DNA of 64,000 bases. It comes from Anatilimnocola aggregata (GTDB taxonomy: Bacteria; Planctomycetota; Planctomycetia; Pirellulales; Pirellulaceae). The translations under genes and the position numbers were made by a program. Below the pieces are notes generated by a model that ran no database searches, was not told the origin of the DNA, and worked only from the letters and a program-made list of their open reading frames with translations. This document shows, in pieces, positions 14,067 through 20,801 of this stretch (positions are counted from its first letter, which is position 1; each line of letters begins with the position of its first letter). Location: positions 7,998,001 through 8,062,000 of the forward strand of contig NZ_CP036274.1 in assembly GCF_007747655.1 (NCBI RefSeq). Direction: 5' to 3'.

Positions 14067-16796
14067 TTAGCGCGCCGCTGTCTCGCGGATTGGATCGGGG
14101 TCGAGCAGGTTGACATGCACGTCGTCGACCCAGGCTTCGCCGAGGCCGGTGAGGGCAAAGCTGACGACGAGTTCGCCCGATTCAGGCACCGCGCGATAGT
14201 AAGTAAATTGCCGCCAGCCGCGAGTGAGTCGTATGCGGTCGGCCAGATCGGGTCCGCCGATCGAATCGAAAATCATCAGGCCGTCGTGGCTGCCGTGGAC
14301 GACCTGCGGAACGTAGCACCAACCAGTGATGCGGGCAATTTGCTTTTCACGTACCGGTACCGGGCTGCTGGTGATCCAGACAACGGGCCGTTCGAAGGGG
14401 GGAGGCAATTGCTTGGGCTCGCGCGCGGCAGCTGCCAGTCGCAGGGCACTTCGTCCGCCGTGAGGATTGACGAGTGACAAGGCGACTTCGCTCTTCACAC
14501 CATCGGGCAGGCGGTTGTAGTTTTTCCAGCCAGCCTTGGTCATCTGATCGAGCGATTCAAAATCGCCCCCCGCTTGGGCATTGGCTCCCCACGTGGCTCC
14601 ACGCAGGCGTTCGGCTAGTTCCCAGTGCAGGGGCAGCGTGGTGAACTGCGCGATACACGGGCTGGCGGCCGGAGCATGAAAGGCAGCCACCGATTGTTCC
14701 CAGTGACCGCGACGAATGCGGGCCTGCTGTTGTTCAGCCTTCACGATGTACGCATGAGCTGCCGAGAAATCACCGGTCGACATCACCCGCTGCGATTGGG
14801 CCAGGTTCCCTTCCGCTTCTCGCAGCCAGGTGGGCGCTTCTTTCAGCGTGTGGCCCGCAATGTTCAATCGTTGATCGATGTCGACAATTTGCGTCTGCCG
14901 ACGCACAGCCAGATCGTGCCGCAACCGAGTCGCGTCTTGCTTGATCTCACTCAGCGTGCGATTGAGATAGTGAATCACGAGCGGATCGTGTGTGATGACG
15001 ACAGCCGACGATGTGCTCGCTTCGTCGACCGTCACGCGCAGGCCGCCAGTTGCCATGGCCGAACGAAGCTTTCGCAGGCCAGCCGTAGTGATTTGATAAG
15101 CCTGACTGGCCGCTGGGACTCCGGCGACAACCAGCGTGAACTGATTGCGAGGCGCGGGTGTCGCTACATACTGCTGGGCAGCCGCTCGTTGCGTGACGAG
15201 GAGCAACCGCGAGCGTTCGGTCTGCCAGACGGCGGCATACACGCCCGCTTCGGGCGCAGAAAGCTCCTCGGTCAACTGACCGCCGGAGATCCAGGGCTCC
15301 ATCAGCCGCAGTTCGAAATTAAGCATCCGCAGCGCGTCGGTGCGCATCGAAGTCGGAATCGTATCGATGCTCAGTGGCGTTTCGGATGGGAAAATCAACC
15401 CACGCATGCCAGCTGAAAGATTGAGATACATCGTCAAGCGAAGTTGCTCAAGGTCGCAATCGTCGGGCAGAGTCGAGTTGCGCCCAAGCAGTGTCAACTG
15501 TTGCTGCAACGCGGCGGCTGGCTGCGAGTAGACCGTGCCCCAGAAGGGCGTACCTGGCCGGGCAAGTTGTTCGCGATCGCTGAGCCAAGCGCGGAGGTCA
15601 TTTTGTTCGAAGCTGGTCGCTGCCGTTCGTTTGTCGATTAGTAGTAGACTGGCAAGCCGACTGTATTCGCTTAGTTCGCAATCGGCACCAACGAGCAGCG
15701 GGCGCTGCCGCTGCGGATCGATGCTGCGAATCTCTTGGGCCAGATCGCGCGTGTAAGGAACGTCGCGATCGACGAGCCGAGTCCCCAGGCTCCAAGCCAA
15801 GACGGGCTTGAAGGCTTCGGGCGGCGGCGCAGTTTCATCGGCAAATGGTGGTGGCGCAACAATCCACATTCCCAGCCGCTGCGCTTCCTTTAGCAAGGCC
15901 GGTGATGGTGAAGCATTGAACTTTACCGCGTTGAAACCCAGCGATTGCAACCAGGCCAGCGGTTCCCCTTGATGTTGAATAATGCGTGGCAAGAAGGGAC
16001 GACCCTTGGCCAACAAATGCGAACCTTGAATCTCCGCTCCTGGCGTTTCGAGATTAGCCGGTCCCTCGTTGGTGCCACCAAAGGGAGTGTTGTCGATGGT
16101 GGGGCGCGAGACATTCACGCCCACTTTGTCTTGTGGCACGAAGCCTTTGATCTCGACATCGTCGATCCAGAGTTGCAGATTGCCGGGACTGCTGTACGCA
16201 TTGAGGACGAGCAGATCGACCTGAGCGCCGCGAACATCGACTTCCGGCCCGAATTCGCGGCGCAGGCGAATCAATTCGGGGCCATCGAGCCGGCGGAGAA
16301 CTTCTTTCACAGACAATTGTTGCCAGGCACCCACGTCGGTATAAGTATCGCCTGGCAGGAGCGTCGTCAGGGGCTTGCCGGTGCCGCGGTCGGTCGTGCG
16401 GGGGAGGACGACGCGAATCAGCACTTGTAAATTGGGCCGATCCGATTTGATCCAGAGCGAAGGCTCGAACTCGGCAATTACGGGAACTCGTTCCAGCTGA
16501 TAGGCCAGGTGAACGTAAGTGCCCGTGCCGACCGACAGCCGCAGGTATTCGCTACCACTTCCCGAGCGCGACTGGCGAAAAGTTCGTTCCTGCCCGATCA
16601 ACCGCACGCCAGCATCGGCAGCGGCCAGTTGCCAGGTCGCTTGCGGCGATTCGAACGTATCGCGGAACTGTGCGACCGCTGGCTGCGTAGTGATGAACTG
16701 CAGCACCGTCAGCAGCCCGAACACTAACCCTAACAGCCGCGCGCACCGCGACCGCTGAGGTCGAACGTGGGGCGAAGTGCTGAGGGCTCGCTGCAT
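14067..16796 (-). CDS. Large secreted protein, jelly-roll plus putative glycosidase-like domain
   Basis: I start at the ATG complementary to 16794-16796, giving 909 residues with a signal peptide (RCARLLGLVFGLLTVLQFITT...AVAQ). The upstream open frame lacks a signal and is disregarded. Residues about 40-220 look like a carbohydrate-binding jelly roll (DTFESPQATW, GSGSEYLRL, LWIDDVEIKGF). A central region (FNAVKFNASPSPALLKEAQRLGMWIVAPPP, VLAWSLGTRLVDRDVPYTRDLAQEIRSIDPQRQRPLLVGAD) resembles the strand pattern of a TIM-barrel glycoside hydrolase, but I could not pick catalytic acids with confidence. A helical segment lies near 680-760, and another sandwich domain ends in ESGELVVSFALTGLGEAWVDDVHV. 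It probably acts on or binds polysaccharide outside the cytoplasm. It is divergent from the gene at 17140. Confidence 0.75.
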   Translation of the reverse strand: MQRALSTSPHVRPQRSRCARLLGLVFGLLTVLQFITTQPAVAQFRDTFESPQATWQLAAADAGVRLIGQERTFRQSRSGSGSEYLRLSVGTGTYVHLAYQLERVPVIAEFEPSLWIKSDRPNLQVLIRVVLPRTTDRGTGKPLTTLLPGDTYTDVGAWQQLSVKEVLRRLDGPELIRLRREFGPEVDVRGAQVDLLVLNAYSSPGNLQLWIDDVEIKGFVPQDKVGVNVSRPTIDNTPFGGTNEGPANLETPGAEIQGSHLLAKGRPFLPRIIQHQGEPLAWLQSLGFNAVKFNASPSPALLKEAQRLGMWIVAPPPFADETAPPPEAFKPVLAWSLGTRLVDRDVPYTRDLAQEIRSIDPQRQRPLLVGADCELSEYSRLASLLLIDKRTAATSFEQNDLRAWLSDREQLARPGTPFWGTVYSQPAAALQQQLTLLGRNSTLPDDCDLEQLRLTMYLNLSAGMRGLIFPSETPLSIDTIPTSMRTDALRMLNFELRLMEPWISGGQLTEELSAPEAGVYAAVWQTERSRLLLVTQRAAAQQYVATPAPRNQFTLVVAGVPAASQAYQITTAGLRKLRSAMATGGLRVTVDEASTSSAVVITHDPLVIHYLNRTLSEIKQDATRLRHDLAVRRQTQIVDIDQRLNIAGHTLKEAPTWLREAEGNLAQSQRVMSTGDFSAAHAYIVKAEQQQARIRRGHWEQSVAAFHAPAASPCIAQFTTLPLHWELAERLRGATWGANAQAGGDFESLDQMTKAGWKNYNRLPDGVKSEVALSLVNPHGGRSALRLAAAAREPKQLPPPFERPVVWITSSPVPVREKQIARITGWCYVPQVVHGSHDGLMIFDSIGGPDLADRIRLTRGWRQFTYYRAVPESGELVVSFALTGLGEAWVDDVHVNLLDPDPIRETAAR

Positions 16797-17139
16797 CGAG
16801 CGGGATCCTGCTGGGGCATCAAAGCGAACGACTTTTGAGGAGCGAACTAAACAACATTGGCGCGTGCTGCGCGGTTCGTCCCCTATGTAGCCTTTCGGCA
16901 ACTTGAGGCCACGAGTGTGGCGAATGCTGTAAGGTGGCCTTGTATCAAGTGTTACGACCACCGGCCAGAGCAAACGTGGCGAAAGCTCCACAGCGAACCA
17001 AGGTCTGCGAAAATCCTTGATTTGTCGCAACCGCTTAATAGCCATAAACTTACGCAACGCACAACGAGCCGTACCCAGGGACTGGTACGCCGGCTGCTTT
17101 TAATGCTGGCATAAGACCAACCTCTGGGAGAAATCACTG
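16797..17139. other. Divergent intergenic region, no gene recognised
   Basis: This 343-bp stretch separates two divergently transcribed genes and should contain both promoters. The open frames across it lack start signals and domain-like sequence. A ribosome-binding site (GGGAG) precedes the plus-strand gene at 17140. I could not identify convincing -35/-10 elements or a structured RNA. Confidence 0.5.
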
Positions 17140-17445: not shown

Positions 17446-17490
17446 GCTTGCCGGCCCTTCGACCAGCCACGTTCGCACTCCTTGTGCCGA

Positions 17491-17532
17491 CGCTTCGCGC
17501 CAACTTGCCCGGTTGGCGCGAAGCGTTTTTTT
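17491..17532 (+). terminator. Strong Rho-independent terminator
   Basis: A perfect 14-bp stem (CGCTTCGCGCCAAC with GTTGGCGCGAAGCG) encloses the loop TTGCCCG and is followed immediately by seven T residues (17526-17532). It lies downstream of the small gene ending at 17445 and upstream of the phosphatase gene. It is the clearest intrinsic terminator in the window. Confidence 0.95.
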
Positions 17533-17604: not shown

Positions 17605-18552
17605 ATGCCCCAGCATCCTTCCCGTTTGATGTTCGCTGCATGCTGGTCGTTGGTTGCGTTATTCGCCATCGCACAAGATCCCGCTGCCAAGCTTCCCGCC
17701 AAGCCATTGAAGGACATTCCCCCCGCGGTGATGGAAAACGTCCATCAACTGTCGGCGAATGTCTATAGCAGTGGCGGCCCCAACGGCGAAGTCGCATTCG
17801 AGACGTTGGCGAAGCTCGGCATTAAGACCATCATCAGTGTCGATGGTGCTCAGCCCGACCTCGTGAATGCCAAAAAGTTCGGCCTGAAGTATGTCCATGT
17901 GCCGATTGGCTACGACGCGCTGCCCAAAGAAAAAGCGCTGCTCATCGCCAAAGCCGTGAAGGAATCGAAGGGCCCAGTTCTGATTCACTGCCACCATGGT
18001 AAACATCGCGGACCAGCAGCTGCTGCGGTCGCTTGTGTAACGGTGGACAACTGGACTCCCGAGCAGGCTCTCGCCTGGATGAAACAGGCCGGCACGTCGC
18101 CCAATTATGCTCAGCTAATTAAGGACGCGGGCTCGTTTCAAAAGCCACTGGCAGCCGAGCTCGACAAGATTCCAGCGGACCTTCCCGAAGCCGTCGCGCC
18201 GACGCCACTCGTCGATGCGATGCTCAAGATCGACGATCGCTTCGATACGGTCCTCAAGCACTTCAATGTAGCCATTGATGTGAAAGGTCCTAACTGGAAG
18301 CAGGCGACCACCGACGCAATTCAACTCGACGAGGACTTTCGCGAGTTCCAGCGCTTGCCTGCCGTCACTAAGTTGCCGGTTGATTTTCAGAAGTTGGCGG
18401 CCGACATGCAAAAATCGGCAGCGGAACTTCATCTGGCTATCGAGGCACTTGCAGCCGGCAAGGTCAAAGACACCGCTCCAGCGCGCGACCTCGTCACGCG
18501 CATGCAGCAGCAATGCGTCACGTGCCATAAGCAATATCGGGACCAGAAGTGA
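17605..18552 (+). CDS. Secreted tyrosine phosphatase-like domain fused to a cytochrome c'-like domain
   Basis: Starting at the ATG at 17605 gives 315 residues with a hydrophobic signal (LMFAACWSLVALFAIAQ). Residues about 35-165 form a DSP/PTP-like phosphatase domain. The P-loop HCHHGKHRG has the CX5R signature (Cys129, Arg135), and an upstream Asp could serve as acid. Residues about 200-315 are an all-helical segment ending in CVTCH (Cys304, Cys307, His308), as in class II cytochromes c', where the haem site lies near the C-terminus. Both domains would be extracytoplasmic, so cytochrome c maturation would attach the haem. The combination of a Cys-based phosphatase and a haem domain suggests redox-linked regulation, but that is inference. 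A TPR gene follows on the same strand about 48 bp away. Confidence 0.85.
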   Translation: MPQHPSRLMFAACWSLVALFAIAQDPAAKLPAKPLKDIPPAVMENVHQLSANVYSSGGPNGEVAFETLAKLGIKTIISVDGAQPDLVNAKKFGLKYVHVPIGYDALPKEKALLIAKAVKESKGPVLIHCHHGKHRGPAAAAVACVTVDNWTPEQALAWMKQAGTSPNYAQLIKDAGSFQKPLAAELDKIPADLPEAVAPTPLVDAMLKIDDRFDTVLKHFNVAIDVKGPNWKQATTDAIQLDEDFREFQRLPAVTKLPVDFQKLAADMQKSAAELHLAIEALAAGKVKDTAPARDLVTRMQQQCVTCHKQYRDQK

Positions 18553-18599: not shown

Positions 18600-20801
18600 A
18601 TGATTCGCACGCTGGTTGTTTCGACTCTCTTCGTTACTTTTGTCAGTGCCGCGCTTGGTCAACCGCCACAGTTGCCGGGCAAGTCCGACGCCGATACCAC
18701 CTTCGACTTACCCGAAGTCTTGCAGCCCGCCAAGACGCGCAGCGAAGCTGCCGAAGACAAGCTAACCGCGGCCACACACTACGCGCAAAGTCGCCTGTTG
18801 CAGCAAAAGGGAGAGACACTCCTCGCCCTGCGGCACCTGCAACGTGCCTGGCGTTACGATCCCGAGACCGATTTTCTTCTGGCCGAAATTGTGCCGCTGG
18901 CCTTCGAAGCAAAACAGAGCGAAGCTGCTGCCCGCTATGCCGTACTTGCAGCCGAGCGCGATCCCAAGGACGCGCTGCTGGTGCGCCGGCTGGCCATCTA
19001 TCTGACCGATAAGCAAGACTACACCCGCGCGCTGCGGATGTATGAAAAGTCGCTCGCCAAGGACGATCAGTTGCAAGCTGGTGTCCCCACCGACCTGGGC
19101 GCCGCCACAGTCTATGCCGAACTTGGCCGGCTTTACTTTCTCACCCAACAATATCAAAAATCAGCTGCAGCCTTCACAGCAGTCCGTCGCGCACTGGAAG
19201 AAGAGAAGTCGTCACTCGACGACAGCGCGAAGAAGTCGCTCATCGGCGAAGCAGCAATCACCTATGTCCTCTGGGGCGAGAGTTTTCTCGAAGCGGGCCA
19301 GCATGCCGACGCGGAGAAGGCCTTTCGCAAAGCCGATCTGGCCAAGCCCAATGCTCCGCTATTGGCCTTCCGCCTGGCGCGAGTCGCCGCAGCACAAGAC
19401 AAGCGTGACGACGCCATCAAACTGTTGAACGAATACTTCGCCGCCAAGACCGCTGACAGCGGCCGCGCACCGTACGAATTACTCGCCAAGCTGCTTGGTC
19501 AGCAAGCGGCGAATCCGGCCGCAGCGCACGAACAATTGATCGCGCGCTTGCGCGAACTCCACCAGGAACAGCCCGAGAATCATCCCTTGGCACTTTCGCT
19601 GGCCAATGCCCTGTGGACGACCGGCAAGTTCGACGACGCTATTCCACTCCTCACCGCCACACTCGCTAAGCAGTCCGATACCGACAGTTCGCAAAAACTG
19701 ATCGAGCATCATTGGCAGCAAAAAGAGTTTCGCGAATTGCTGGCCGCAGCGGGCCAACTGGCCGAGCGGAGTGGCTCGCTCGATTCGCTGGGCGAGCTAC
19801 TAACGCGATTGCAAAAAGATACTGCCGCTGTCACCGCTTGCATCAAGGTCGCGCAAGAACAAGCTGCCCAAACCGATCCCAAGGCCAAGCACGCGCCCAT
19901 TCTGGCCGCTGCGATCATCGCCCGCGGGGGCGGAAAGATGGAGGCTGCCGGCCAGTTGTTCCAAGCAGCGCTGGCGCTCGATCCGCCCAACAAAACCGAA
20001 CTCCGCACGCAGTGGGCGCTGGGTCTGTTTCTCGAAGATAAGAACGACCTCGCTGCAGAGATGTTTCGCCAGGTCCTTGCCGCCGAACCGGCCCCGGGGA
20101 ATCCGGCCGCCATTCGCTACTATCTGGCTGGCGCTTTGGAGATGCTCGGGCAGACCGATGCCGCCTTGCAGGAAATTGACAAGGCTTCGCAACTGCAGCC
20201 GACCAATCCGCGCTACGAAAGTCGTAAGGCCTGGATCCTCTATCACGCCAAACGCTGGCCCGCCGCCGCAGCCGAGTATGAGAAGTTTTTGGACAAGCAT
20301 TCCGCCAAGCAACAAGCGGCCATGCGCGAGCAACTCCGTAGCGCGAAGCTGGCCCTTTCGAACATCGCGCTCGAGCAGGGTGACTTTCCTGCAGCTGTCG
20401 AATGGCTCGAACAGGTGCTCGATGAATATCCCGAAGATCCCGGGGCCTTGAACGACCTCGGCTATCTCTGGGCCGACCGCGGCTTGCATTTGCAGCGTGC
20501 CCTGCGCATGACACAGCAGGCCGTGGCGCTCGAACCAGACAATCACGCCTATCGCGACAGTCTGGGCTGGGCCTATTTTCAGTTGGGTCAATACGAAGAG
20601 GCTGCGCGCGAGTTAGCCGTTGCCGTACAGGAAGAGAATCCCGACGGGGTGCTGCTAGAGCACTATGCCGATGCCCTGCACAAGTTGGGCAAAACCACCG
20701 CGGCCCGCAGTCACTGGCAACGCGCCGCAGAGGCCTTTCAAAAAGCGGGCGAGACGCAAAAGCAAAACCGTGTGCAAGAAAAACTGAAAGCGTCGTCGTA
20801 A
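18600..20801 (+). CDS. Secreted tetratricopeptide repeat protein
   Basis: I start at the ATG at 18600 (733 residues) because it gives a signal peptide (IRTLVVSTLFVTFVSAALGQ). An earlier in-frame start overlapping the phosphatase stop codon would bury it. Most of the protein is TPR helix pairs, for example QKGETLLALRHLQRAWRYDP, GRLYFLTQQYQKSAAAFTAV, AEKAFRKADLAKPNAPLLAF, ALQEIDKASQLQPTNPRYES, GALNDLGYLWADRGLHLQRA and LGWAYFQLGQYEEAARELAV. More than ten repeats can be traced. TPRs act as protein-binding scaffolds. It could be co-transcribed with the phosphatase-cytochrome gene. The partner is unknown. Confidence 0.88.
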   Translation: MIRTLVVSTLFVTFVSAALGQPPQLPGKSDADTTFDLPEVLQPAKTRSEAAEDKLTAATHYAQSRLLQQKGETLLALRHLQRAWRYDPETDFLLAEIVPLAFEAKQSEAAARYAVLAAERDPKDALLVRRLAIYLTDKQDYTRALRMYEKSLAKDDQLQAGVPTDLGAATVYAELGRLYFLTQQYQKSAAAFTAVRRALEEEKSSLDDSAKKSLIGEAAITYVLWGESFLEAGQHADAEKAFRKADLAKPNAPLLAFRLARVAAAQDKRDDAIKLLNEYFAAKTADSGRAPYELLAKLLGQQAANPAAAHEQLIARLRELHQEQPENHPLALSLANALWTTGKFDDAIPLLTATLAKQSDTDSSQKLIEHHWQQKEFRELLAAAGQLAERSGSLDSLGELLTRLQKDTAAVTACIKVAQEQAAQTDPKAKHAPILAAAIIARGGGKMEAAGQLFQAALALDPPNKTELRTQWALGLFLEDKNDLAAEMFRQVLAAEPAPGNPAAIRYYLAGALEMLGQTDAALQEIDKASQLQPTNPRYESRKAWILYHAKRWPAAAAEYEKFLDKHSAKQQAAMREQLRSAKLALSNIALEQGDFPAAVEWLEQVLDEYPEDPGALNDLGYLWADRGLHLQRALRMTQQAVALEPDNHAYRDSLGWAYFQLGQYEEAARELAVAVQEENPDGVLLEHYADALHKLGKTTAARSHWQRAAEAFQKAGETQKQNRVQEKLKASS

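Follow-up and report, generated by a model that had tools for sequence, protein, structure and literature searches.

Introduction

Cys-based phosphatases of the PTP and DSP classes usually, though not universally, carry a Ser or Thr directly after the Arg of their P-loop, and oxidation switches Cys-phosphatases off. Siw14 and plant DSP1 (PFA-DSP; PDB 6byf, 7mok) are inositol-pyrophosphate phosphatases. Closest to the protein described here is TpbA of Pseudomonas aeruginosa (PDB 4r0s, 2m3v), whose solved chains are single-domain; passages of PMC4409338 give its Asp105 as the proposed general acid and the periplasmic domain of TpbB as the target on which it acts. On the haem side, the class II cytochromes c—cytochrome c′, c-556 (1s05), b562 with an engineered c-type haem, and NaxLS (6r6m)—are single-domain four-helix bundles with a C-terminal CXXCH that is mostly followed by Y/F/H-R. 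They differ in how the haem is held: that of cytochrome c′ is five-coordinate, with no sixth protein ligand, Met7 is a haem ligand in cytochrome b562, and ligation in NaxLS is His/Cys.

We know of no Cys-phosphatase whose own chain also contains a haem that carries electrons; a search of the open-license literature for a phosphatase–cytochrome fusion found none. To our knowledge, exported phospho-signaling is itself little known in the bacterial phylum considered here. In the 64,000-nucleotide stretch of DNA analyzed (“the window”), one gene joins the two domains, and we describe its parts, its conservation across relatives, and the readings of its function that these data suggest.

The Fusion Gene and Its Surroundings

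The gene occupies positions 17605–18552 (+) of the window, an open frame of 315 amino acids in translation, and encodes a DSP/PTP–class II cytochrome c fusion that is predicted to be exported, has both Pfam matches, and belongs to a conserved family. Its ATG at 17605 opens onto an N-terminus that by eye resembles a signal peptide, at approximately residues 1–24 (17605–17676, +; cleavage site also judged by eye). A terminator-like hairpin that would close the upstream unit (17489–17527, +; 17-bp stem, 10 GC pairs, T tail) lies just upstream, and we therefore prefer this ATG over the longer TTG start at 17482. A terminator scan gave one site where shuffled sequence gave 1.9 on average, so the case for the hairpin lies in its 17-bp stem. 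Downstream follows a TPR protein whose start is likely the ATG at 18600 (GTG 18549 in the list of open reading frames), which leaves a gap of 47 bases. Elsewhere in the window, a 996-aa frame at 14067–17057 (−) has no Pfam match at E 0.001.

Of the 77 aligned sequences whose start lies on the contig (the other four of 81 are cut off and were left out), 74 carry a hydrophobic stretch at the N-terminus, and in 20 of the 77 a lipobox-like site follows it.

Two Domains in One Chain

The phosphatase half (residues 45–164; 17737–18096, +) matches the DSP-PTPase family PF22785 over residues 64–144, with 27.8 bits against a Pfam cut-off of 27 (E 3.9e-6). Its best match is TpbA, whether searched as a single sequence (E 3e-9) or as a profile (E 8e-12), and Foldseek with the AlphaFold model (pLDDT 90.1 for the whole protein) likewise ranks TpbA first (E 3.5e-7), followed by Cdc14 and DUSPs, which identifies a DSP fold. 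The P-loop HCHHGKHRG spans residues 128–136 (17986–18012, +) and has the CX5R form, with C129 as predicted nucleophile and R135 as the Arg; the candidate general acid, D104 (17914–17916, +), aligns with Asp105 of TpbA. DSP fold, HCxxGxxR loop, and a general-acid Asp in register are thus common to both proteins, whereas the fusion has two domains, and TpbA has a known substrate while the fusion has none yet. The loops differ as well: that of TpbA, HCKHGNNRT, has Thr after the Arg, but the window protein has G136, and across the 81 aligned sequences this position is G in 55, S in 25, and A in one. Given this Gly in place of Ser/Thr, turnover of the phosphatase domain may be slow.

The P-loop also resembles that of Siw14 and plant DSP1, which have LIHCxxGKHR as the fusion does, though overall similarity is weak (E 0.01) and the window protein stays below the cut-off of the PFA-DSP/Siw14 family PF03162 (22.5 and 25.2 bits vs 27). 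Neither the window protein nor its phosphatase half reaches the cut-off of any NCBIfam model.

The haem half (residues 201–312; 18205–18540, +) is assigned to the class II cytochromes c by its modeled helices and by PF01322 (Cytochrom_C_2), which matches residues 251–312 with 27.5 bits against a cut-off of 26.5 (E 6.6e-6) and with 29.4 bits when the half is searched alone; 52 of 62 C-terminal halves match this family at E 0.01. Its AlphaFold model consists of four long helices (pLDDT 95.7), and the haem c attachment motif CVTCH (residues 304–308; 18514–18528, +), with an Arg just past it (R312; 18538–18540, +), sits near the C-terminus within this bundle, as in class II cytochromes c. Sequence profiles of the half match cytochromes c′, c-556, and b562. 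By fold, Foldseek finds no match at E < 0.1 for the haem-domain model; the best class II hit, second overall, is chain A of Kusta0087/0088 (TM 0.68/0.77, probability 1.0, E 0.18), behind an unrelated chain with a probability of 0.44. The genome encodes a cytochrome c assembly gene (PF01578). The same genome holds a second protein, of 349 aa (L142:1495-2544, −), that ends in the class II motif CVECHENYR after approximately 300 residues without a Pfam match.

A sequence-only reading of this DNA had proposed a phosphatase-like domain, recognized by its CX5R P-loop, joined in an exported chain to a class II cytochrome domain ending in CVTCH, and had placed a haem site and a redox-sensitive Cys in the same chain. 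That architecture stands: both motifs lie where it had read them, the N-terminus is signal-peptide-like, the predicted sites C129 and CVTCH are present in one chain, and both halves, including the C-terminal helices by profile search, pass their Pfam cut-offs. They do so narrowly, if above chance, and the case is therefore carried by conservation in the family, with further support from the two confident AlphaFold models.

Conservation Across Aligned Sequences

The alignment of 81 sequences comprises the window copy and 80 loci, the best 80 of at least 482 places confirmed in a contig scan. These loci were found by P-loop and VDG patterns, so that selection accounts in part for the invariance of the P-loop; the patterns did not include M206, CXXCH, or R312. 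In this set, C129, R135, H98, Y103, D80, M206, C304, C307, H308, and R312 are present in 81 of 81, as is G132, and others are nearly so (H134 in 80, E247 in 79, H131 and R250 in 78 each, and D104 in 74, being absent from seven). Within the haem domain, for which 62 of the 81 rows were compared at 38% mean column identity, only M206, C304, C307, H308, and R312 are invariant. A pattern-free check gave the same picture for the P-loop: 30 of 30 loci taken as the best of the phylum-wide profile search (L111–L140) show HCHHG[KR]HR together with CXXCH, and a locus found later (L168) has HCHHGKNR and CXXCH. One locus (L087:5899-6834) has HCHKGTMRG in place of the usual HCHHG[KR]HR and keeps its CXXCH.

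The inter-domain segment (residues 165–205; 18097–18219, +) is nearly constant in length: T164 and M206 are 38–43 residues apart in the 81 sequences, mostly 42. Since the distance from M206 to C304 ranges from 84 to 107 residues in the same sequences and this linker hardly changes, the two domains seem to be kept in a set relation to each other.

The invariant Met (M206; 18220–18222, +) is the predicted sixth haem ligand; it speaks against a cytochrome c′ in the strict sense and marks a difference from NaxLS. A phmmer alignment over the domain matches M206 to Met7 of engineered cytochrome b562 and CVTCH to its CXXCH, though weakly (E 0.77); the alignment by profile A2, built on the haem domain, begins later (position 23 to residue 8) and is approximately 3–4 residues off this register. 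Because M206 is invariant and aligned, if weakly, with a ligand Met, we predict that the haem, if bound, is probably a six-coordinate electron-transfer center, Met/His-ligated by H308 and M206.

Distribution and Phylogeny

Of the three phyla sampled, one has the fusion often, and in the other two it is sporadic or rare. Searched with the fusion protein, its own genome gives a single match, the protein itself. Among 100 genomes of the family, 53 have a match and 47 a match that spans both domains (48 matches), counting those that extend from query position 60 or earlier to position 300 or later; partial rows, e.g., G084, G028, G017, and G057, were not counted. Among 392 genomes of the phylum, 177 have a match at 1e-10 with a 30-row alignment (A1) as profile, and 132 have one that spans both domains (133 matches, among the 150 best-scoring matches listed), where spanning means that profile position 279 is reached; 131 genomes remain if position 310 is demanded. 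Other listed matches are partial (G239, G309, G469) or phosphatase-only, and the lowest-scoring, phosphatase-only rows were left out of the count. Co-occurrence of the two domains across planctomycetes, to which the earlier reading had looked for confirmation, is thus borne out.

Beyond this phylum, 28 of the best 80 of the at least 482 loci bear labels that we read as Verrucomicrobia-type. In 194 genomes from the phylum of one such locus, 14 matched and only the seed spanned both domains; in 151 genomes from the phylum of a locus labeled Abditibacteriales (L031), 14 matched and three have both motifs (the seed L166, L167, and L168).

A tree of the 81 sequences, whose bootstrap had not settled, needs four label changes between the 28 Verrucomicrobia-labeled and the 53 other rows, against a mean of 23.3 when labels are shuffled; the labels are the submitters' own, and the 53 include L031 as well as metagenome-assembled genomes titled only “bacterium.” The branch that leads to the window copy is long (1.21) and, in a placement without support, lies apart from the main Pirellulaceae group, as if this copy were a distinct paralogue or a transfer.

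Separate-Gene Versions and Gene Neighborhood

Nineteen phosphatase-only relatives were fetched with approximately 2 kb on each side, or less at contig ends. In three of them (L147, L148, and L149), which are also the best-scoring of the 19 against the phosphatase profile, the P-loop is of the HR type and a gene with a class II CXXCH lies directly downstream of the phosphatase gene. In L147 and L149 this gene starts approximately 84 bases beyond the end of the phosphatase frame, and in L148 the two overlap. PF01322 matches two of these cytochromes below its cut-off (E 7e-4 and 2e-3) and does not match that of L149; all three match profile A2 (E 2e-7 to 4e-5, with only these three sequences searched). 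In the A2 alignments, the cytochrome of L147 has a Met in register, and those of L148 and L149 end short of it. By eye, starts resembling export signals are present on both genes in L147 and L148 and on the cytochrome only in L149. The L149 phosphatase frame lies near a contig end, and its N-terminal stretch, of a different look and with a weak tRNA_bind match, is perhaps an assembly joint; the same frame (L149:1582-2535, −) seems by eye to hold another DSP-like repeat, degenerate and lacking the P-loop Cys.

In the remaining 16 of the 19, the loop reads HCxxGxDRTG and the fetched stretch holds no class II cytochrome; one further CXXCH frame among them (L153) overlaps the phosphatase. As far as so small a set can show, phosphatases of the HR type and the cytochrome go together, fused or not.

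No constant partner gene lies beside the fusion in the neighborhoods of all 80 loci: the largest recurring cluster of neighbors, DUF1501-like by eye, is found at 10 of the 80, and the next, pilin-like proteins (again by eye), at eight. As no neighbor recurs beyond this, none suggests a partner or substrate, and the fusion protein seems to act on something encoded elsewhere. At two Verrucomicrobia-labeled loci (L064 and L109), the fusion is immediately preceded by a pair of exported proteins of SCO1/CusF-like appearance (by eye), a hint that it may be connected with copper or oxidase assembly at these loci.

A Proposed Mechanism and Its Alternatives

Our preferred reading, which we hold with slightly less than even confidence, is that the protein is an exported, haem-bearing, Cys-dependent phosphatase of the periplasm that is redox-controlled by its own haem. 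After export, the c-type maturation machinery would attach the haem, and ligation by H308 and M206 would make it a low-spin redox center of the c-556/b562 kind. Such a haem could exchange electrons with the respiratory chain or with carriers in the periplasm, and set the activity of the nearby phosphatase through a changed domain conformation or, alternatively, by keeping the C129 thiolate reduced or letting it oxidize. Redox state would thereby be coupled to dephosphorylation, either of a periplasmic phosphoprotein (cf. TpbA on TpbB) or of a small polyphosphorylated molecule, for which the GKHR P-loop offers a hint. Possible, if rather doubtful, is a phosphatase wired to the respiratory chain, in which the haem delivers electrons to the catalytic Cys or removes them, such that periplasmic electron flow sets the dephosphorylation of proteins or metabolites.

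An unlikely alternative to a phosphatase is a redox enzyme in which C129 would attack thiosulfate, a persulfide, or a disulfide and the fused cytochrome would accept the electrons, as in cytochrome-linked sulfur enzymes. Linking a catalytic Cys to an electron carrier makes direct enzymatic sense, and this reading needs the same parts as the preferred one; the departure of G136 from the phosphatase norm fits such a reading, as do weak matches to the sulfur transferase/dioxygenase Blh in 36 of 39 phosphatase halves and to TIGR01244 in 26 of 39. The scores of the window's phosphatase half, however, are far below both NCBIfam cut-offs (26.3 vs 625 for Blh; 23.4 vs 85.85 for TIGR01244), and 3gxg, the solved member of DUF442, a neighboring family that resembles sulfur transferases, has a CX4R loop (HCLANYR), unlike the CX5R of the fusion family, which thus lacks the DUF442/Blh loop. 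The GKHR P-loop and D104 are phosphatase features. Nor do the neighborhoods favor it, their most frequent recurring cluster being found at 10 of the 80 loci.

Distinctly improbable, in our view, is the proposal of the sequence-only reading that the haem half is an open-site cytochrome c′ and senses gas, with NO or CO binding the haem and switching the phosphatase. PF01322 is the cytochrome c′ family, and Kusta0087/0088, the best class II fold match (at E 0.18), is called nitric-oxide-binding in a passage of PMC11897245; yet M206, present in all 81 sequences and paired, if weakly, with a Met known to ligate haem, would occupy the sixth coordination position, which makes gas sensing less likely.

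We give similarly little weight to a non-catalytic pairing, in which the DSP-fold domain would only bind a phospho-ligand or partner and so dock the cytochrome, a working electron carrier. The Gly at position 136 in 55 of 81 sequences and the missing D104 in seven would suit a domain of this kind, but C129, G132, and R135 are kept in every aligned sequence (this loop partly guided the choice of loci), and all 30 loci found without the pattern have it intact. That the fusion arose by chance or as an artefact is ruled out, since matches span both domains in 47 of the 100 genomes from the family and in 132 of the 392 from the phylum (among the 150 best-scoring matches listed for the latter).

Significance

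Both domains are known, and their combination is a new architecture of known parts, with a fair chance that it represents a new kind of control. All 81 aligned sequences (the window copy and the best 80 of at least 482 loci) retain both domains, with the catalytic Cys and Arg and the haem residues unchanged. With this conservation, and with its presence in the phylum as counted above, a link between electron transport and an exported phosphatase becomes testable with one recombinant protein. If the preferred reading of a haem-controlled phosphatase holds, the pairing may let redox state control a phosphatase.
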